From Actinoallomurus spadix (GTDB taxonomy: Bacteria > Actinomycetota > Actinomycetes > Streptosporangiales > Streptosporangiaceae), in contig NZ_JAMXMX010000001.1 in assembly GCF_024055725.1 (NCBI RefSeq), positions 248,001-312,000 on the forward strand: DNA of 64,000 nucleotides. Direction: 5' to 3'. Shown here one piece after another: positions 38,862 to 48,865 of this stretch. A program made the position numbers and the translations under genes. The notes below the pieces were generated by a model. That model did no database searches, was not told where the DNA came from, and saw nothing but the letters and a program-made list of their open reading frames with translations. Within the stretch, counting starts at the first letter, position 1, and every line of letters begins with the position of its first letter.

Positions 38862-39718
38862 TTGTCTAAGTCAGGACCCGGCGAGCGCTCGGAGTCGCTG
38901 GGTATCCGCCGGCCGGTGGCGTTGCCCAAGGCGGACATCGAGGGAACCGCAGACCTGGCGCCGGCCACCGGCGCCGAGCCGGCCCAGGAGGTCGACCGGC
39001 CCGCCACCGAGGAGGAGAAGGCCGCCGAGACCGCGACTCCCGAGGGGGAGAAGGCCGGCGAGACCGGAGAGCGGCCGAAGGACACGTCGCCGGCGGCGGC
39101 CAGCAGCCTCCGCCGGGCGCGTACACCTCCATGTCCCCGTCGGCGACCCCGACCTCGAAGCCCTCCGCGCACGCGACGCCCACCCCGGGGGCCAGCAAGA
39201 GCGCCGCTTCCAAGACCTCCGGCAAACCTTCACCTAGCGCCCATGCCGCCCATAAGGGTGGTTCGTCGAGTAAAACAGCCAGCAAGGGTGGTTCCTCGGT
39301 CGGAGCGGCCAGCAAGGGCGGTTCCTCGAGCAAGTCGGCCCACAAGGGCGTTCCGGCGAGTGAGAAGCCGACGTCGGGTGGGAACCCGTACACACTCGAG
39401 GTCCACGCGACCTACGACATCAACCCGGGGAAGACCCTGCGCACGAACCGCCTCGCGCTGACCATGCAGAAGGGCGGCAACCTCGTACTGCGTGACACGA
39501 CCGGCAAAATCGTCTGGTCCACCGGGACGCATCAGGCCGGCGCGTACGCCGAGTTCCAGACCGACGGCAACCTGGTCGTCTACGTCAACGGCAGACACGC
39601 GGTCTGGGCGTCGGGGACGTACGGCCACAACGGCGCGACGCTGGTGCTCCAGACCGACTACAACCTGGTGATCTACGACGGCCACAACGCGCTGTGGGCG
39701 AGCCATACGAACAGGTGA
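38862..39718 (+). pseudogene. B-lectin (bulb-type mannose-binding lectin) gene, apparently frameshifted
   Basis: The 5' part begins at TTG 38862 with AAGGAG upstream and encodes an acidic Pro/Glu-rich stretch (RRPVALPKADIEGTADLAPA... EKAGETGERPKD). Around 39085-39110, in a GGC-rich stretch, coding sense moves to the -1 frame: PPPGAYTSMSPSATPTS, then a Ser/Lys/Gly-rich linker with repeated KGGSS, then a B-lectin domain with the characteristic QxDxNxVxY-type repeats (MQKGGNLVLRD, FQTDGNLVVYVNG, LQTDYNLVIYDG). The lectin frame alone starts at ATG 39131 without a ribosome-binding site and has no signal peptide. Decay or a sequencing error both fit. Confidence 0.55.
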
Positions 39719-39767: not shown

Positions 39768-41798
39768 TCACCGGCTGACCCGGCCCTCCTCGTCTCCGAT
39801 CGAGCGGTACAGGATTTCGGCGTCGCTCCAGGCGTCCTCCGCCGCGCCGTGGTGGTTCTGCCGGTGCCACGCGACTCCGGTCAGCTCGCGGGCGTACGCC
39901 TGGAGTGCGGGGGCGCCGATCTCCTGGGCCAGAGTCGCGGCCCGGTCGAGGTAGCCCACGGCCGCGTCGTACCGCTCCGCCTTGATCTCGATGGCACCGA
40001 GATTGATCAGATCGATCGCCCGGCCCTCTCTGTCGCGTTTCGGCCGGGCCCGGTGGGCCAGGCGCAGGTCATTGCGGGCGGCGTCGAGGTCGCCGTTGTC
40101 GGCGTGGCACACCGCCCACTCCGTCTTGAGCTGGCTGAAGTAGGGCACGTGGCCATGCCCGAGGGCATCGGCCTCGGTGAGCAGGCGCTGTGCCTCGTCG
40201 ACGCGCCCGCGGCCGCGCGCGACCGCGGCCATGCGGATGTAGGCGACCGCTCGGGCGGTGGCGTCGCCGGTCTCGGCCCCGCGGGCCAGCATCGCCTCGG
40301 CGACGTCCACGCGCTCACGGTCACGCTGCTCGCGGGAGAACCAGCGGTCCAGCGCCTCGGCGATCGCCCAGAGGCCGGCCGCCGCGCGCATCGGCGGCTT
40401 CGGCACGCCGAGCAGGGCCAGCAGGGTGACGTCATGGACGGCGAACCACCGCGTCGCGTCGAGGTCGTGCTCGCCACCGAGCATGCGGGCGTTGTCCTGG
40501 GCGAGGCCGGCGTAGAAGTCGGCGAGTCTGACCTGCACCCGCGCGGTCTCCCGGGGAGGAACCGGATCGGCGAGGCTCACGGCGGACGGGACCACCCGGG
40601 CCCCGGAGGAGCTGCGCTGGACGAGGAACCTCCGGCTGAGCTCGGCCAGGTGCCGGTCCGCCTCCTGCAGCGAGATCCCGCCGAGCGCGGCGATGGCGGC
40701 GTCGGTGAACTCCGCGTCGGGTGCGGCGACGAGTTGTGACAGCAGCCGCCGCGCGGCGCTGGGCGCCCGCGTGAGGACCATCGCCATGATGGCGTGCAGT
40801 TCGAGGATCTCGCCGCCGTCCTTCAACACGCGCAGGAGCCCCGCGAACGTCTCGCCGGGGTTCTGGGCCAGCCAGCGTCCCAGCAGGATCGCGACGCGTG
40901 GGTGCCCGAGCGGGTAGTGCTCGGCCAGCTCGCGGGCCGCGGCCGGATCGGCCTGTGCCCGCGCTCGGATGGAGTTGCGTGCGGTATCGGGGGAGTGCCA
41001 CCGGTGCCGGAGCCGGTCCAGCAGGGTCTTCGGCGTCGCGCGCGGTGGTTCGCCGGCCTGCCGGCACAGCAGTTCGAGCGCGTGCTCGGGGGCGAGGCCG
41101 CTGACCGGCACATCCGGAACGCCGGTCAGCTCGTCGGGGCCGATCGTCCCGGCGATGATCACGAAGGCCCCGGGGACGCCCTCGGCGATCCACCGGACCT
41201 CGTTCACGTCCTGGACGTTGTCGATCACGAGCACCAGCCCGCTGCCGCGCAGCTTCTCCACGACCGCCCGGGTGGCGTCGGCGCCGGACAACTGCAGGTC
41301 CAGGCCGAGGATCCGCAGCACCGGCATCCGCACCCACCGGTTCCGGTCGCGCAGCAGTGGGATCCGCGACAGGCCGGTTCCGTTCGGCCGCAGCCTGCTC
41401 AGGTCCACATAGCGCTGGGACTCCTCGCTCGGGACGAGCCGCCGGGCCGCCGCGACGGCCACCGACGAGGTTCCGATGCCGGGAGGCCCGTGCACCACGA
41501 CCGTTCCATGGCGGTGCGCCCAGGCGAGGACCGTCTCCATGATGGAGTCACGGCCGACGAGATCGTCGACCCGCGGGAGGTCCTGCGGGATCGGGTCCGG
41601 GCCGCGCTCAGACGGCCGGAGCAGTCGCGACACCGAGAACACCAGGATGCCCACGCCGATGACGACCCAGGGCACCCAGGTTCCCACCGCACCCAGTTGA
41701 TTCGCGGCCACCTCGCCCACGGCCTTGAGCGCGACCGCGCCCGCGAAGGTGACGTATCCGGCGGTCCGCTGGAACCGCGACCTGCCCCGGGAGGTCAT
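39768..41798 (-). CDS. Membrane-anchored NB-ARC/TPR (STAND) protein with altered P-loop
   Basis: A 676-residue STAND-type protein. Two hydrophobic segments (about residues 12-30 and 40-58: WVPWVVIGVGILVFSVSRLL) anchor it; an NB-ARC-like domain begins at VDDLVGRD (78). The Walker A motif reads GPPGIGTSS: the lysine is replaced by Thr110. Walker B is LVLVIDN (Asp193). A winged-helix-like part (340-430) is followed by TPR-like helices (470-660; AVGYLDRAATLAQEIG, GVAWHRQNHHGAAEDAWSDAEILYRSIGD). ATG 41798 overlaps the stop of the permease gene (ATGA). It is the last gene of a four-gene coupled operon starting at 45259. Function unknown; a signal-output role for the transporter-like proteins upstream is inferred. 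Confidence 0.82.
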   Translation of the reverse strand: MTSRGRSRFQRTAGYVTFAGAVALKAVGEVAANQLGAVGTWVPWVVIGVGILVFSVSRLLRPSERGPDPIPQDLPRVDDLVGRDSIMETVLAWAHRHGTVVVHGPPGIGTSSVAVAAARRLVPSEESQRYVDLSRLRPNGTGLSRIPLLRDRNRWVRMPVLRILGLDLQLSGADATRAVVEKLRGSGLVLVIDNVQDVNEVRWIAEGVPGAFVIIAGTIGPDELTGVPDVPVSGLAPEHALELLCRQAGEPPRATPKTLLDRLRHRWHSPDTARNSIRARAQADPAAARELAEHYPLGHPRVAILLGRWLAQNPGETFAGLLRVLKDGGEILELHAIMAMVLTRAPSAARRLLSQLVAAPDAEFTDAAIAALGGISLQEADRHLAELSRRFLVQRSSSGARVVPSAVSLADPVPPRETARVQVRLADFYAGLAQDNARMLGGEHDLDATRWFAVHDVTLLALLGVPKPPMRAAAGLWAIAEALDRWFSREQRDRERVDVAEAMLARGAETGDATARAVAYIRMAAVARGRGRVDEAQRLLTEADALGHGHVPYFSQLKTEWAVCHADNGDLDAARNDLRLAHRARPKRDREGRAIDLINLGAIEIKAERYDAAVGYLDRAATLAQEIGAPALQAYARELTGVAWHRQNHHGAAEDAWSDAEILYRSIGDEEGRVSR

Positions 41799-43453
41799 CG
41801 TCGCACCCCCTGGGTGAAGCCCTGGACCAGCCATTTCCCGGTCCCGAGGACCAGCGTCAGCGGAATCACCGTGGAGACGACGGCTCCGGCCGCCAGCACC
41901 CCGGACGAGGTCGTGAACTCGCGCGTCTGGTCGTACAGCACGAACGTCACCTGGCCGGCCTCCGGGCCGCCGAGGAGGAAACCGACCACGAAATCGTTCC
42001 AGACGAGGACGAACTCGAGCACCGCGACGGTCAGTACGGCCGGCCAGCTCTCCCGCGCGACGGCGAAGAGCACTGAATCCGGATCCAGCAGGCGGACGCG
42101 GTCCGGGTCCGGGCGGGCGGAGACGAACGCGGCGCGCAGCAGCAGCACTGCGAGCGGCACCGCCAACGCGGTGTGCACCAGGGTCAGGGCGGTCGGTGCG
42201 CCGAGCAGACGCAGGTCGTCGAACACGCGCCCGAGCTCGACGATCACCGTCTGCGGCGGCACGACCGCGACCACGGTCGTGACCGCGATGAGGATCCGTC
42301 CCGTCCGGCGCGACAGTCCGCCTCGCGCGAGCGCGTACGCCGCCGGCACGGCGATGACGACCAGCAGCAGGGCCGCGCCCACCGAGCGCACGGCGGTGTT
42401 CGACAGGGCGTCGAGCAGCTCACCGCTGGCGAAGGCGTCCCGGTAGGAGCCGAAGCCGAAACCGCCGCTCCACCACCCGCCGCTCGCGGCGGCCTCCGGC
42501 GTGTGCAGCGAGGTGAGCAGCACCACCGCCGGCGGGACGAGCCAGACGGCGATCGCGAGGACCGCGACCACCCGCCCGCGCACGCCGGGCGGGGGCTCCT
42601 CCTGCTCCTCCACAGGGTTCGGCCACTGCCGGCTGAGTCCCCACAGCAGGGCCAGCGCCAGCGCCGCGACGCACAGGAACATGACCACGCTGAGCGCTGC
42701 CCAGGTGCTCTCGGCGACGTCCAGCCGCCACCGCCACCAGTGCACGCCCGCGACGTCCACCTCGGCCTGCTCCGAACCGGGCGCGGTGATCAGCACCAGC
42801 TCGAACACCCGCGCGGCGGCGAGCAGCGCCACGATGAGCACGAGCGCGCCCGCGGGCACCAGAGCGGGCAGCGTCACGGTGGACCATCGTCGCCGGCGGC
42901 CGTGCCCGAACGCCTGGGCCATCCGTGTGAGGTCGCGCGGAACGCGGCCCAGCCCGGCCCGGAACACCACGACGGCCAGCCCGGCCCACTGCCAGGCGAA
43001 CGCCAGTCCGAGCACCGGCCAGATCCCCGGTGATCCGAGGAACCGGCCGCCCAGCGCATCGGCAGGACCGCCCGGGGTGAACAGCAGCCGGAACGCGACC
43101 GCGGTCACGAGCGTCGACACCGCGATGGGCGCGGCCAGCACACCGAGGCGCCGGACACCGCGGGCCTGCCAGGCGAGGAACAGCCCGAACGCGCAGACGA
43201 CCGGTGCGAGGACCAGCCACACCAGGCTGTTGACGATCGCGTGCCTGATGCCGTGATCGGTCCACAGCGCGCCATAGCCGTGGCCGCCGTCGTCGAAGCT
43301 GACCACGACGGCCCAGACCAGCGGGAGCACGACGACCGCGCCGACGAGCGCGGTGGCGGGCAGGAGATACGCCACGGCGCGCCACGGCAGGCTGCGGTGC
43401 CCGCGCACCGGAGCACGGGTGTCCTCGATGAGGCGGACGTGGAACGCCGTCAC
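41795..43453 (-). CDS. Single-chain double ABC permease (MalF/MalG-like fusion)
   Basis: A 552-residue membrane protein with about 12 hydrophobic segments in two halves joined by a charged linker (WGLSRQWPNPVEEQEEPPPG, ~residues 240-265). Each half resembles a carbohydrate-type binding-protein-dependent permease. The first half keeps an EAA-like loop (DLTRMAQAFGHGRRRRWSTVTLPAL); in the second half the loop is degenerate (DPDRVRLLDPDSVLFAVARESWPAVL), lacking the EAA-G core. GTG 43453 overlaps the stop of the binding-protein gene (GTGA), with GGAGG just upstream. Usually MalF and MalG are separate genes. Confidence 0.82.
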   Translation of the reverse strand: MTAFHVRLIEDTRAPVRGHRSLPWRAVAYLLPATALVGAVVVLPLVWAVVVSFDDGGHGYGALWTDHGIRHAIVNSLVWLVLAPVVCAFGLFLAWQARGVRRLGVLAAPIAVSTLVTAVAFRLLFTPGGPADALGGRFLGSPGIWPVLGLAFAWQWAGLAVVVFRAGLGRVPRDLTRMAQAFGHGRRRRWSTVTLPALVPAGALVLIVALLAAARVFELVLITAPGSEQAEVDVAGVHWWRWRLDVAESTWAALSVVMFLCVAALALALLWGLSRQWPNPVEEQEEPPPGVRGRVVAVLAIAVWLVPPAVVLLTSLHTPEAAASGGWWSGGFGFGSYRDAFASGELLDALSNTAVRSVGAALLLVVIAVPAAYALARGGLSRRTGRILIAVTTVVAVVPPQTVIVELGRVFDDLRLLGAPTALTLVHTALAVPLAVLLLRAAFVSARPDPDRVRLLDPDSVLFAVARESWPAVLTVAVLEFVLVWNDFVVGFLLGGPEAGQVTFVLYDQTREFTTSSGVLAAGAVVSTVIPLTLVLGTGKWLVQGFTQGVRR

Positions 43454-44682
43454 GATGACGCCTCCTGCTCCGCGGCGAGCCTCTCGCACGTCCGGGTGAC
43501 CGCCACGTCCAGCGGCGTCCGGTGGATCGCGACCCCGGCGAAGAAATCCTGGAAGATCTTCCAGGTGCCGCGGCCGTCGGAGCCGGTGAGCCGCCCGCCG
43601 AGCTGATCGGACAGATCGAACGCCGGGCCCTGGCCCGTCGTGGTCTCGGCGCGTACCTGGTCGGCCAGCGCCGCCAGATCGGGGGGATAGTCCTTCACCG
43701 CGGGGTTCACCGACAGGAACCCGCCCGCTCGCGCCCAGATGTCGGCCGCTCGTGGGGTGGCCAGCCAGGCGATGAGCTCGCGGCCCGCGTCACTGTGGCG
43801 GTTCAGCAGGACGGCGGCGTCGCCGCCGACGATGAGCGAGCGCTTCTCCCCTTCCCGGCAGGGGAACCGGAACCAGCCCGCCGGCGCGCTCCCGAACTGC
43901 TCGATGACCGGATGGTCGAAGTCGGCCCCGACCAGCATGGCCGCCCGCCCGTGCCGGAACACGTCCAGCACGGCCTGATCGAACTGGATCAGCAGCGCGC
44001 GACGCGGACCACCGGGGAAGGCGCCGGGGATGGCCCAGACCTCGCCGACGCGGCGCAGGGCCTCCCGCACCCGCGGATGGGTCCACAGCGGAGCGCCGCC
44101 GACGAGGGCGCGATAGACCTCGGGATCGACACTCAGCAGGGCGTTCTCGAACCAGTCGGTGAGCACCCAGCCATCGGCCGCGCCGAGGGCCAGCGGCGGG
44201 TGCCCGGACGCCGCCATCGCCCGGCACAGGTCCACCCACTGGTCCCAGGTGGCCGCCTGATCGCCGCCCAGTCGATCCCGCCGGTACCAGACCAGTGACT
44301 TGTGCGCGGCCTTGAACCACACGCCGTAGTTGGTTCCGTCCCGGGCCAGCAGATCCGCCCAGGACGCCGGGATCCCGCGCGCCGGAGGAAGGGGGGTGAG
44401 CCGGTCGCGGTGGGCGTCCACCATCGCCGGACTCTGGATCAGCGCGACGTCCGGGACGGCGGTGCGCGCCACCCGGTTGGCGATCAGCGCGTCGAGATCG
44501 TTGCCCGCGGAGCGCACACCGACGTCGACACCTCCCCGCACGAACGGAGCCAGGACGCTGCGGAACCGGCTGAGCTCCGAGCCGCTCCAGATCACCACGA
44601 CGCGGACGCTCTCCCGTGGTCTCCCGCACGCCGCCGTGAGCGTCAGCAGCGCCAGCCCCGTCATCGCCTCCCTACGTCGCAT
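43450..44682 (-). CDS. Lipoprotein extracellular solute-binding protein (family 1-like)
   Basis: A 410-residue lipoprotein: MRRREAMTGLALLTLTAACG with lipobox Cys19. The mature protein has the cluster of carbohydrate-type binding proteins: VRVVVIWSGSELSRFRSVLAPF, NYGVWFKAAHKSLVWYRRD (the typical hinge region), GRAAMLVGADFDHPVI and a C-terminal WKIFQDFFAG. The ligand is unknown. GGAGGAA precedes the ATG at 44682. It overlaps the end of the ABC-like gene by 11 bp and the start of the permease gene by 4 bp. Confidence 0.85.
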   Translation of the reverse strand: MRRREAMTGLALLTLTAACGRPRESVRVVVIWSGSELSRFRSVLAPFVRGGVDVGVRSAGNDLDALIANRVARTAVPDVALIQSPAMVDAHRDRLTPLPPARGIPASWADLLARDGTNYGVWFKAAHKSLVWYRRDRLGGDQAATWDQWVDLCRAMAASGHPPLALGAADGWVLTDWFENALLSVDPEVYRALVGGAPLWTHPRVREALRRVGEVWAIPGAFPGGPRRALLIQFDQAVLDVFRHGRAAMLVGADFDHPVIEQFGSAPAGWFRFPCREGEKRSLIVGGDAAVLLNRHSDAGRELIAWLATPRAADIWARAGGFLSVNPAVKDYPPDLAALADQVRAETTTGQGPAFDLSDQLGGRLTGSDGRGTWKIFQDFFAGVAIHRTPLDVAVTRTCERLAAEQEASS

Positions 44683-45259
44683 CGTGGAGTTCCTCCGGCC
44701 GTACGGCGCCGTCGGCGAGGGCGCCGCTCTCCCGATCGGTGATCACCAGGACGGTGGCGCCGTACGCCTGCGCGGCGGACACGGCGGGGCGGCAGGAGAC
44801 CTGCCCGGCGCGGTCTTCGAACACGATGACGCCAGGGTTCCGCGGATGGCCCAGCGCGCGGGCCACGGCCACGCGCAGGCGCTGCGCGGGGGAGAGCTCG
44901 TGCGGATGCCGCTTGCGCATGCCGGTGAGCCGGAGGTCGCGGAGCCGGTCCGCGGCGTGCGCGGGATCCCCGCCGTACGCGACGTTGCGCTCGACGTTCA
45001 GGTGCGGTAACAGCCCGCCGCCGACGGGCACGAGTGTGATGCCGCGCTCTCCCGGCGGCGCATCGGTGATGTCCCGCCCGTCCAGACGGACGGCGCCGGC
45101 GAGCGGCCGTGCGAGCCCGAGCACCACGTCGGCGAGCGCGGTGCCCGGGTCGGGAGTCGTGCCGATGACGGCCGACCTGCCGGACGGAACCGTGAGGGTG
45201 AGGTGGTACCGCGCACCGTGGGCCGGCCAGACGAGCGCATGCAGATGCAGGCTCGGCAC
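44672..45259 (-). CDS. Degenerate ABC nucleotide-binding domain protein (pseudo-ATPase)
   Basis: A 195-residue protein that aligns along MalK/UgpC-type ATPases (VPSGRSAVIG..., LAGAVRLDGRDITDAPPGERGITLV, GLLPHLNVERNVAYGG) but lacks every catalytic motif. Walker A reads GTTPDPGTA at 33-41 (no Lys). The Q-loop Gln is Val79. The signature is LSPAQRL (122-128) instead of LSGGQ. Walker B ends FED instead of DE. The H-loop reads VITDRE with Thr for His. The regulatory C-terminal domain of MalK is also missing. GTG 45259 has AGGGAGA upstream. It is the first gene of the coupled four-gene operon; it is unlikely to hydrolyse ATP. Confidence 0.78.
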   Translation of the reverse strand: MPSLHLHALVWPAHGARYHLTLTVPSGRSAVIGTTPDPGTALADVVLGLARPLAGAVRLDGRDITDAPPGERGITLVPVGGGLLPHLNVERNVAYGGDPAHAADRLRDLRLTGMRKRHPHELSPAQRLRVAVARALGHPRNPGVIVFEDRAGQVSCRPAVSAAQAYGATVLVITDRESGALADGAVRPEELHDAT

Positions 45260-45328
45260 GACTCGTCTCCCTCGACGTGTGCGGCGCTGGACGCGTGGAC
45301 CCTCGGTGACCCCGGCACGATAACGCGA

Positions 45329-45391
45329 TTGTAAGGAGGGGGTAACCCTTTGCAAGCGCCTTTCACTACTTCCTGCGTGACCGAAAGTCAC
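45329..45391 (-). promoter_or_regulatory. Promoter and upstream dyad of the transporter-like operon
   Basis: On the minus strand TTGCAA (45351-45356), 16-bp spacer, TACAAT (45329-45334). About 60 bp upstream of the predicted start is a dyad GTGAC-N5-GTCAC (45377-45391) in the place of an activator site. It resembles a CRP-type half-site pair (TGTGA ... TCAC) but has the wrong central spacing, so the regulator is unknown. Confidence 0.45.
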
Positions 45392-45469: not shown

Positions 45470-46123
45470 TCAGGACGCGCGGCGGGCGAGCAGCGTGGAG
45501 TCGTGAGCGTCCACCGTGACGCCGTCACGGGTCAGCGTGCGCGGGCGCTGTTCGGCCACGAGGACGTCGAAGTCCTCCGGCAGCGCGGGCAGCAGTTGCC
45601 CGGCGGTGAACATCGCTTCGCGGTGGCTCGCCGTCAGGTGGGTGAACGCCTCGGACGGCGCGTGGCCGACGATGAGCAGGTGCCCGCCGGGCGCGACGGC
45701 CTCGGCCAGCCGCCGGGTGACCTCGGCCATTCCGCCGCCCGGCGGGTGCAGGTAGTGGCTGGTGACCAGGTCGTAGGTCCGGCCTCCGGCCGCGAAGGCC
45801 CGTGCGTCGATCCGCCACCAGTCGACGCGGTCGGCGACGCCGGCCTGCTCGGCGCGCCGGGCGGCGCGGGCCAGGCCGTTGGCGGAGAAGTCGGCGCCGG
45901 TGACCGTCCAGCCTCGCCGCGCCAGCCAGATCGCGTCGCCGCCCTCGCCACAGCCGACGTCGAGCGCGGTGCCCGGTGTCAACCCGGTCACCTCGGTGAC
46001 GAGCTGGGGGTTGGGATTTCCGCTGAAGACCTGTTCCGGCCCGGAGTACCGCTCGTCCCAGCTCGCCGGCTCGAACGTGGCCGCGGCCTCATCGTCGGTG
46101 AGCCGGCGGTCGTGTCCACTCAT
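45470..46123 (-). CDS. Class I SAM-dependent methyltransferase
   Basis: A 217-residue methyltransferase: motif I is GTALDVGCGEGGDAIWLARRG, then VTGADFSANGLARA (acidic loop binding the ribose), RTYDLVTSHYLHPPGG and VAPGGHLLIVGH. N-terminal WDERYSGPEQVFSGNPNPQLV is typical of the TehB-like/thiopurine-methyltransferase-like small methyltransferases. Substrate unknown. No close operon partner. Confidence 0.85.
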   Translation of the reverse strand: MSGHDRRLTDDEAAATFEPASWDERYSGPEQVFSGNPNPQLVTEVTGLTPGTALDVGCGEGGDAIWLARRGWTVTGADFSANGLARAARRAEQAGVADRVDWWRIDARAFAAGGRTYDLVTSHYLHPPGGGMAEVTRRLAEAVAPGGHLLIVGHAPSEAFTHLTASHREAMFTAGQLLPALPEDFDVLVAEQRPRTLTRDGVTVDAHDSTLLARRAS

Positions 46124-46447: not shown

Positions 46448-47863
46448 CTAACGCTCGGGATGCTGCATGGGCAGTGTCGTCTGGGGCGTCAGCTGAATGG
46501 CGCCACCAGGGGTGGTGGGCCGCCACTCGGCGAGCATGATGGTGGCGTCGTCGGCCAGCGGCGCGCCGTGCTCGGCCAGGAGGCCGTGGACGAGGCGCCG
46601 CAGCGCCTCCGGCGTGGACATGCCGGCCGCGGTCGTCCGCAGGATGGTGTCGGCCAGGCGCTCCACCCCGAACAACTCGCCGGTGCGGGTGCGCGCCTCG
46701 ATCACACCGTCGGTGTAGCACAGCAGACGGTCGCCCGGCTGCAGGGTCTCGTGGTGCGTGCGCGGCCGCGTGCCCTCCAGCAGCCCCATGGGCGGGTCGG
46801 GGGTCCGGGCGAGCTCTTTGATCACTTTGTCCTTGCGGATCAGCAGTGGGGGCGGATGGCCGCAGTTGACCCACTCCAGCCGCCCGGTCTCCGTCTCCAA
46901 GTTCAGCAGCAGGCCGGTCATGAACCGCCATTCCGGACTGTGCTCGCGGATCGCCCGGTCGGCGACCGTCGCGATCTCGGCGAGGCCGCCGCCGGCCCGC
47001 CGGGTGCTGCGGCAGGACGCCAGGCCCACGGACGCGACCAGCCCGGCCACCAGGTCGTGCCCGGCGGCGTCCAGCACCGTCATGTGGACGCTGGTGTCCA
47101 TCGTGGAGAAGTCGTAGGCGTCTCCGCCCAGCCGGTAGGCGGGTTCGGCCGCCGCGGAGATCACGACGTCCTTGGTGGCCAGCGTGTGGCCCGGCATGAA
47201 CGCCCAGACCATCTCGGCCGACAACTCCATGCGTTCGCGCCGGCGCAGCCGCGCGAAGGCGTCGCTGTGGATGCCGTGGCTGGCCACGAGGAGCGCCACC
47301 ACTCCGGCGAGCAGGTGACATCGCTGCAGCACCTGTTCACCGAGGCGGTCGAGGGCCAGCTCCAGGACACCGAGCCGTACGGTGCCGTCCACCAGCGGCA
47401 GCCAGACCCGGTGGCGCCGCACCGGCGCGTCGACCCCGGTCAGGTCTCCCGGGGCGTCGCCCTCCTCGGCCGTCACCACGGTCAGCCTCCGGTAGGCCAG
47501 CCCGGCCACCGTGCCCTCGATCCGCACCATCCCGGGCGCGGGCGTACAGTCGCCGAGGCTCGTCAGGTGGCCGATCGGTTCCACGCCGCGCACGGGCGCG
47601 GGCGTACCGTCCCCTGGAACGTCGACGTCGACCTCATCGCCGAGGCCGGTGTCCGTGCCGGGATCCGCGGCGCAGGGCAGGGGCACGAGCACCGTCTCCT
47701 GGAGGTCGGCCAGGTACACGACGACCCGCGTGATGCCCAGCGGCCGGGCCTGGTGCAGCACCACCTCGGCGAGCCGGTTCGGCGGGTTGCACCGCGCCTC
47801 CCGCAGGATGTCCGCCAGAATCCGCTCGCCCACCGACAGGCCGGCGGCCTCACCGGTGCTCAT
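46448..47863 (-). CDS. PP2C-type (SpoIIE) serine phosphatase with N-terminal sensor domain
   Basis: A 471-residue protein. Residues ~15-220 look like a GAF-like sensor (LVDGTVRLGVLELALDRLGEQVL). Residues ~250-455 are a SpoIIE/RsbU-type PP2C phosphatase: AYRLGGDAYDFSTMD, HMTVLDAAGHDLVAGLVAS, LEWVNCGHPPPLLI, GDRLLCYTDGVIEAR and a C-terminal DDATIML with metal-binding aspartates. Such proteins dephosphorylate anti-sigma antagonists in actinobacterial stress networks. No anti-sigma pair is adjacent, so the partner is elsewhere. Cytoplasmic. Confidence 0.88.
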   Translation of the reverse strand: MSTGEAAGLSVGERILADILREARCNPPNRLAEVVLHQARPLGITRVVVYLADLQETVLVPLPCAADPGTDTGLGDEVDVDVPGDGTPAPVRGVEPIGHLTSLGDCTPAPGMVRIEGTVAGLAYRRLTVVTAEEGDAPGDLTGVDAPVRRHRVWLPLVDGTVRLGVLELALDRLGEQVLQRCHLLAGVVALLVASHGIHSDAFARLRRRERMELSAEMVWAFMPGHTLATKDVVISAAAEPAYRLGGDAYDFSTMDTSVHMTVLDAAGHDLVAGLVASVGLASCRSTRRAGGGLAEIATVADRAIREHSPEWRFMTGLLLNLETETGRLEWVNCGHPPPLLIRKDKVIKELARTPDPPMGLLEGTRPRTHHETLQPGDRLLCYTDGVIEARTRTGELFGVERLADTILRTTAAGMSTPEALRRLVHGLLAEHGAPLADDATIMLAEWRPTTPGGAIQLTPQTTLPMQHPER

Positions 47864-48226: not shown

Positions 48227-48865
48227 TCACTCGGGCATGGCTCCGGGGTCCGTGCCCCCGGCCGGCATGCCTCCGGCGTGCGTGCCTCCCGCCGGCATCC
48301 CGGTGGCCCGTCCTTCGGCCGGCATGTCCGTGGTCTCCATCCCGGCCGGCATGCCGCCGGTCTCCCCGCCGCCGAGCGGCATTCCCGTCGTGCGGGCGCC
48401 CGTGATCGGGATGCGGTGCCCATGGGCTCGCTGGGCCTTGGGGATGCGCAGGGTGAGCACGCCTTCTTCGAGTTTGCCCTCGACGTTGTCCGCGTCGACG
48501 TCGGACGGCAGTGACGCGTGGTAGTGGAAGCGCCCGACCCGTACGCGCAGCGCGTTGGAGCCCTCGGTCTCCTCCCTGACCTCACCGCTCACGCACAGCT
48601 CACGGTCCCGGATGTTCACGTCGACGTCGTCCGGCAGGATGCCCGGCAGCTCGAGGCGGACGACGTAGCCGTCCTCGGTCTCGTCGATCTCCGCGATGGG
48701 TACCCACGGGCGTTCGGTCTCGGCTTCCATCGGCGGCTGGATGAGCCCGGTCATCCGGTTGAGCAGTTCCTGGACGTCCGCGAAGGGATCCCGGTGCAGC
48801 AGCCCGGTCGGCTCCATTCCGTGCAGCCGGCCGGCCCTGCCGCGCCGCCTCATCGGCATAGTCAT
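48227..48865 (-). CDS. Hsp20/alpha-crystallin small heat-shock protein with Met-Pro-Ala-Gly repeat tail
   Basis: A 212-residue chaperone. The alpha-crystallin domain spans about residues 50-150 (VPIAEIDETEDGYVVRLELPG, DVDVNIRDRELCVSGE, GRFHYHASLP, ADNVEGKLEEGVLTLRIPK, then the C-terminal anchor RIPI). The last ~55 residues are low complexity, built from GMPAG-like units (TTGMPLGGG, TGGMPAGM, TTDMPAEG, ATGMPAGGTHAGGMPAGG), which is unusual. Divergent from the gas-vesicle operon; Hsp20-like proteins (GvpH/GvpI-neighbour type) are often linked to gas-vesicle genes, so a role in vesicle assembly is plausible but unproven. Confidence 0.85.
   Translation of the reverse strand: MTMPMRRRGRAGRLHGMEPTGLLHRDPFADVQELLNRMTGLIQPPMEAETERPWVPIAEIDETEDGYVVRLELPGILPDDVDVNIRDRELCVSGEVREETEGSNALRVRVGRFHYHASLPSDVDADNVEGKLEEGVLTLRIPKAQRAHGHRIPITGARTTGMPLGGGETGGMPAGMETTDMPAEGRATGMPAGGTHAGGMPAGGTDPGAMPE

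Follow-up and report, generated by a model that had tools for sequence, protein, structure and literature searches.

A four-gene actinomycete locus encoding a candidate ATP-independent receptor derived from a sugar importer

The DNA analyzed here (the window) is a 64,000-nucleotide stretch of the Actinoallomurus spadix genome, within which four minus-strand genes form a tightly coupled set. Gene 1 (44672..45259; 195 aa) codes for an ABC nucleotide-binding-domain-like protein, gene 2 (43450..44682; 410 aa) for a lipoprotein solute-binding protein (SBP), gene 3 (41795..43453; 552 aa) for a fused permease, and gene 4 (39768..41798; 676 aa) for a membrane-anchored STAND/TPR protein. A first-pass annotation, made from the sequence alone, had described four minus-strand genes overlapping by 11, 4, and 4 bp, and all of these open reading frames were confirmed in place and strand; the same -11/-4/-4 junction spacing is also present in relatives, which supports the four start sites. 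A putative sigma-70-type promoter (TTGCAA-16-TACAAT; 45328..45355, minus strand) lies 68 bp upstream of gene 1, although this near-consensus site is seen in the window only and relatives lack it. No RNA families were found around the four-gene locus.

Gene 1 is kin to the PotA/MalK-type ATPases (Pfam ABC_tran, 2e-8; NCBIfam potA, 7e-15), and lacks the C-terminal regulatory domain of MalK. It had been described as MalK-like with its catalytic motifs lost, and each of them is indeed degenerate: the Walker A position reads IGTTPDPGTALADV, LSPAQ replaces LSGGQ, FEDRAG replaces the DEP Walker B, TDRE stands at the H-loop, and the Q-loop is degenerate too. The loss is general, as the P-loop lysine, LSGGQ/E, and the Walker B DE are each present in 0/38 of the ABC proteins. 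At Walker B, the window's family has ED and the f39 loci have DL, and the EDRxG replacement residues are themselves conserved in ABC proteins of the window's family. Despite the loss of motifs, the domain is predicted to fold well; its AF2 model has a pLDDT of 89, and the modelled fold matches importer ABC nucleotide-binding domains.

Gene 2 matches SBP_bac_1 (2e-11), and Cys19 of its lipoprotein signal is invariant among relatives, both consistent with its initial assignment as a lipoprotein solute-binding protein. Its nearest solved relatives are sugar-binding proteins, including LpqY, and the invariant segments are WSGxEL, WFKxAHKS, ADGWxLTDWFEN, and GGD. The two halves of gene 3 were matched separately, the N-terminal half being SugA/MalF-like and the C-terminal half SugB/MalG-like, in agreement with the proposal of two permease halves in a single chain. 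Of the features of a CUT1 importer, a CUT1-type SBP and two homologous permease halves are present. The EAA..DG motif, however, is absent from both coupling loops in 32/32 aligned permeases, and the C-half loop is shortened in the fused permeases, whereas ordinary permeases from the same searches, serving as a control, retain recognizable EAA..DG-type loops. An EAA regular expression matched elsewhere in the chain (in the window, inside the loop PEAAASGGWW), and the evidence for EAA loss is the aligned loops of the 32 permeases, not that expression.

Gene 4 consists of an N-terminal hydrophobic hairpin (residues 6-60), a NOD, a winged helix, and a TPR region (about residues 430-676); a NOD fold together with a winged helix and superstructure-forming repeats gives it the architecture of a STAND protein. 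Its sequence matches are AfsR and PH0952, with AfsR (8k60, 8jke) the best among solved structures, and structure comparison matches its fold to PH0952, Apaf-1, and CED-4. The initial description, an NB-ARC/TPR protein with two membrane segments, holds for the STAND/TPR part and for the segment at 42-60, which is clear; the first hydrophobic segment, a helix within 6-37, is weaker and is modelled at low confidence. The P-loop reads GPPGIGTS in place of GxxxxGK[ST], with the lysine changed to Thr. None of the 40 STAND proteins has the lysine (0/40), nearly all carrying Thr and those of L033 and L034 carrying Ala, and the GxGTS replacement is itself conserved in the NOD. As a control, STAND paralogues with an aligned P-loop keep GxGK in 14 of 15 cases. 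The exception (L027; G063:C1) is a paralogue with a GVGTSS P-loop in a short locus with no fused permease, so that lysine loss may also occur in STAND proteins outside the four-gene system.

The STAND NTPase domain is absent in three distant loci (L090, L100, and L101), and because it is dispensable there, gene 4 more likely works through its membrane hairpin and TPR scaffold. No DNA-binding, enzymatic, or effector domain was recognized in gene 4 as an output domain, and Pfam scans gave no match to a LuxR/GerE DNA-binding domain; Pfam and NCBIfam likewise revealed no kinase among the four conserved genes.

A search for the same four-gene order in other actinomycetes, as the first-pass annotation had proposed, found it in 37 loci from several families. 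Among the 32 distinct loci parsed first, 30 are clear four-gene loci, L090 has reduced genes, and the contig of L044 ends before gene 4. In the f39 group, six loci (L111-L116) have all four genes and one (L110) has three, its contig ending before gene 1; the two f6 loci (L100 and L101) have the SBP gene, the fused permease gene, and the gene 4 counterpart (TM-TPR), with no ABC gene recognized within 18 kb. The TM-TPR gene is next to the fused permease gene at 40/40 loci with enough contig, and the SBP, fused permease, and TM-TPR protein are never lost across loci. With conservation in 40 other loci, chance is ruled out for the four-gene set. Two findings had been named as speaking against the initial reading, and neither was made: no homologue has an intact P-loop (ABC, 0/38; STAND, 0/40), and the STAND gene is linked to the transporter genes wherever the contig allows.

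Within the window's own family (151 genomes), a search with gene 4 returned eleven other full-length homologues, all directly downstream of a fused permease gene; every STAND homologue above about 70 bits adjoins a fused permease, and SBP and ABC genes lie upstream in all of the extended regions. Carriers include Streptosporangium, Sphaerisporangium, Acrocarpospora, Nonomuraea, and a Thermomonosporaceae MAG. In the order, 31 of 299 genomes carry the fused permease (E <= 6e-79); ordinary permeases score far worse, at best about 1e-26, and further, more distant carriers occur in other families of the class. Sampling of the window's genus found it in four of eight members, and the system is therefore accessory; it is also rare overall, since a phylum sample of 397 genomes gave no match at E <= 1e-30 beyond the window's own genome. 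All of these counts are lower bounds, with single-protein queries used and few candidates scored per genome. No plasmid copies of the fused permease were found.

Only one of the open reading frames flanking the locus in the window has any match among the flanks of other loci. With essentially none of these surroundings shared, what is conserved is the set of four genes. Flanks are syntenic within the Nonomuraea-type loci, and conserved neighbors that might name an output were found only within single genera (Nonomuraea-type and f39 loci), with none family-wide. The Nonomuraea-type loci L042, L055, and L079-L089 have a downstream convergent zinc-finger anti-sigma factor-like gene and a second conserved gene, a synteny restricted to that group, and in three f39 loci (L114-L116) a gene just downstream of the TM-TPR gene encodes an ABC protein whose P-loop, GPNGSGKT, is intact. 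In the window, the convergent neighbor (39131-39718, plus strand) codes for a B_lectin (D-mannose binding lectin) domain with a Ser/Pro-rich N-terminal part; it is carbohydrate-related, yet is not conserved beside the four genes. Upstream are genes for a methyltransferase (45470-46123) and a SpoIIE-type phosphatase (46448-47863), both on the minus strand, ordinary, and not conserved with the operon; farther on, a minus-strand gene (48227-48865) codes for an Hsp20 protein whose repetitive C-terminal tail, made up of GMPAGG-type repeats, is unusual.

Most gene pairs are under purifying selection, with dN/dS (Nei-Gojobori) of about 0.2-0.55; the exception is the ABC gene of the pair L079-L082, with dN/dS near 0.9. 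Pairwise distances of the four proteins correlate with r = 0.90-0.96, which fits co-inheritance and is also expected from plain vertical descent. In a permease tree, with ordinary permease pairs as the root, the fused permeases fall into a single clade (support 0.96). The complete four-gene f39 loci diverge earliest within it, and a nested group (0.98) unites the NOD-less L090 (f2) with L100 and L101 (f6), whose loci lack both the NOD and the ABC gene. The simplest reading of the tree is that both nucleotide modules may have been lost from the locus stepwise, with the SBP, permease, and TM-TPR protein retained; our confidence in this order of loss is moderate because the branches are long.

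We think it probable that the four genes code for a transmembrane receptor that works without ATP and arose from a sugar importer of the CUT1 (LpqY-SugABC) type. Its lipoprotein SBP would capture a ligand outside the cell, probably a carbohydrate or a fragment of a glycan, and the loaded SBP would dock on the fused permease, which would relay a conformational change to its own cytoplasmic face. There the ABC domain, where present, would serve as a structural adaptor and not as a motor. The gene 4 hairpin would lie alongside the permease, and the cytoplasmic TPR superhelix of gene 4 would bind or release a partner in the cytoplasm, much in the way that MalT is held by idle MalFGK2. The ligand, the docking, the absence of transport, the partner, and the output are all what we infer. 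The first-pass annotation had claimed that the transporter parts no longer import but signal the presence of an extracellular ligand to the STAND protein; the loss of ATP sites and EAA loops supports the first part well, short of proof, and the second is a reasonable inference. The chances are slightly better than even that the locus represents a new bacterial receptor class, in which an importer without ATP hydrolysis, built on a fused permease, is joined to a dead membrane STAND/TPR protein with no nucleotide cycle, some lineages having neither nucleotide-binding module at the locus.

Against a receptor stands the presence in the same genome of an intact MsiK/UgpC-type ATPase (462 bits), which could energize a permease, and the main rival is that the system is still an importer. 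The fused permease would then take its energy from a shared MsiK/UgpC-type housekeeping ATPase, with the dead ABC protein acting as a silent heterodimer half or a brake and the STAND/TPR protein regulating uptake. Such sharing has precedent among actinomycete sugar importers, as described for CebE/MsiK and DasABC-MsiK (PMC4890002, PMC6167110), and the strongly conserved SBP core also fits continued uptake. Nevertheless, both halves of the permease have lost the EAA loops on which an ATPase docks, and the C-half loop is shortened, while ordinary permeases keep these loops; moreover, the locus retains a dead ABC protein of its own, which MsiK-dependent systems lack. We consider continued import unlikely, though it is to be taken seriously.

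The initial annotation had also suggested a defense-like role, in which the SBP would detect a phage- or competitor-derived molecule, as a defense or self/non-self sensor, and the STAND protein would trigger a protective or lethal response via its membrane hairpin. The relation of the STAND fold to Apaf-1/NLR proteins, the patchy distribution within a genus, and the occurrence of inactive STANDs among the components of predicted conflict systems (PMC7159879) are in keeping with such a role, but PADLOC gave no match for any of the four proteins, no effector domain is present, and no conserved defense neighbors were recognized. Oligomerization, moreover, would be driven by the NOD, a domain that has no P-loop lysine here and that three loci do not encode. 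The defense-like part of the annotation is thus not borne out, and we regard such a function as improbable. A decaying transporter operon, its genes functionless relics under relaxed selection, would explain the loss of all catalytic motifs and the one ABC pair with dN/dS near 0.9. However, the open reading frames are intact in >35 loci over deep divergence with their overlapping junctions conserved, dN/dS otherwise lies mostly at 0.2-0.55, and the ABC model keeps its pLDDT of 89; this breadth of conservation largely refutes decay, and we rejected the relic or pseudogene reading as very improbable.

ABC importers are a well-known kind of ATP-driven machine, as are STAND proteins, and several actinomycete families retain the two side by side with neither ATP site intact. 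If the locus codes for a receptor, an importer would have been turned fully into a sensor, and the system would offer a natural test of conformational signalling by importers without ATP. The distant loci provide a series for defining the minimal core, from the full set, to loci with the NTPase domain gone, to loci with the ABC gene also gone. Domain-based automatic annotation would report an ordinary sugar transporter and a TPR protein, and so hides the system.

The composite, with its proposed function, falls outside the known kinds that we could identify, although each of its parts has a known ancestry. As had been supposed, searches of Pfam, NCBIfam, PADLOC, and the literature turned up no named system that combines the four parts. 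The mycobacterial trehalose importer LpqY-SugABC (CUT1) supplies one of the SBP's nearest solved relatives and the nearest for both permease halves, but SugA and SugB are separate chains served by a working SugC ATPase, whereas the window has a fused permease, lost motifs, and an attached STAND protein. The AfsR-type NOD/TPR regulators give the best sequence match of gene 4 among solved structures; AfsR carries a SARP DNA-binding domain, which gene 4 lacks, having a membrane hairpin instead. The operons of iSTAND conflict systems similarly encode a STAND protein that is catalytically inactive, but its partners there are MoxR and vWA proteins, and the text describing them does not contain the terms 'ABC transporter', 'permease', or 'solute' (PMC7159879).

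By analogy, the closest precedents in action are MalFGK2-MalT and GlnH-GlnX-PknG. In Escherichia coli, the ABC subunit of idle MalFGK2 anchors the STAND protein MalT at the membrane and frees it upon substrate transport (PMC10427625), so that a CUT1 importer is likewise paired with a STAND protein; however, MalK and MalT use nucleotides, whereas both ATP sites are lost in the window's operon, and MalT is soluble and binds DNA, whereas gene 4 is membrane-anchored with no recognized DNA-binding output domain. In the conserved GlnH-GlnX-PknG operon of Actinobacteria, a lipoprotein SBP is proposed to signal via a membrane protein to a cytoplasmic TPR-containing protein (PMC6069109), giving a similar SBP-based sensor with a TPR-containing output protein. 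GlnX, however, is not a whole importer permease, whereas the membrane part encoded in the window is a full one, and PknG is an active kinase, whereas the gene 4 TPR protein contains no known enzyme.
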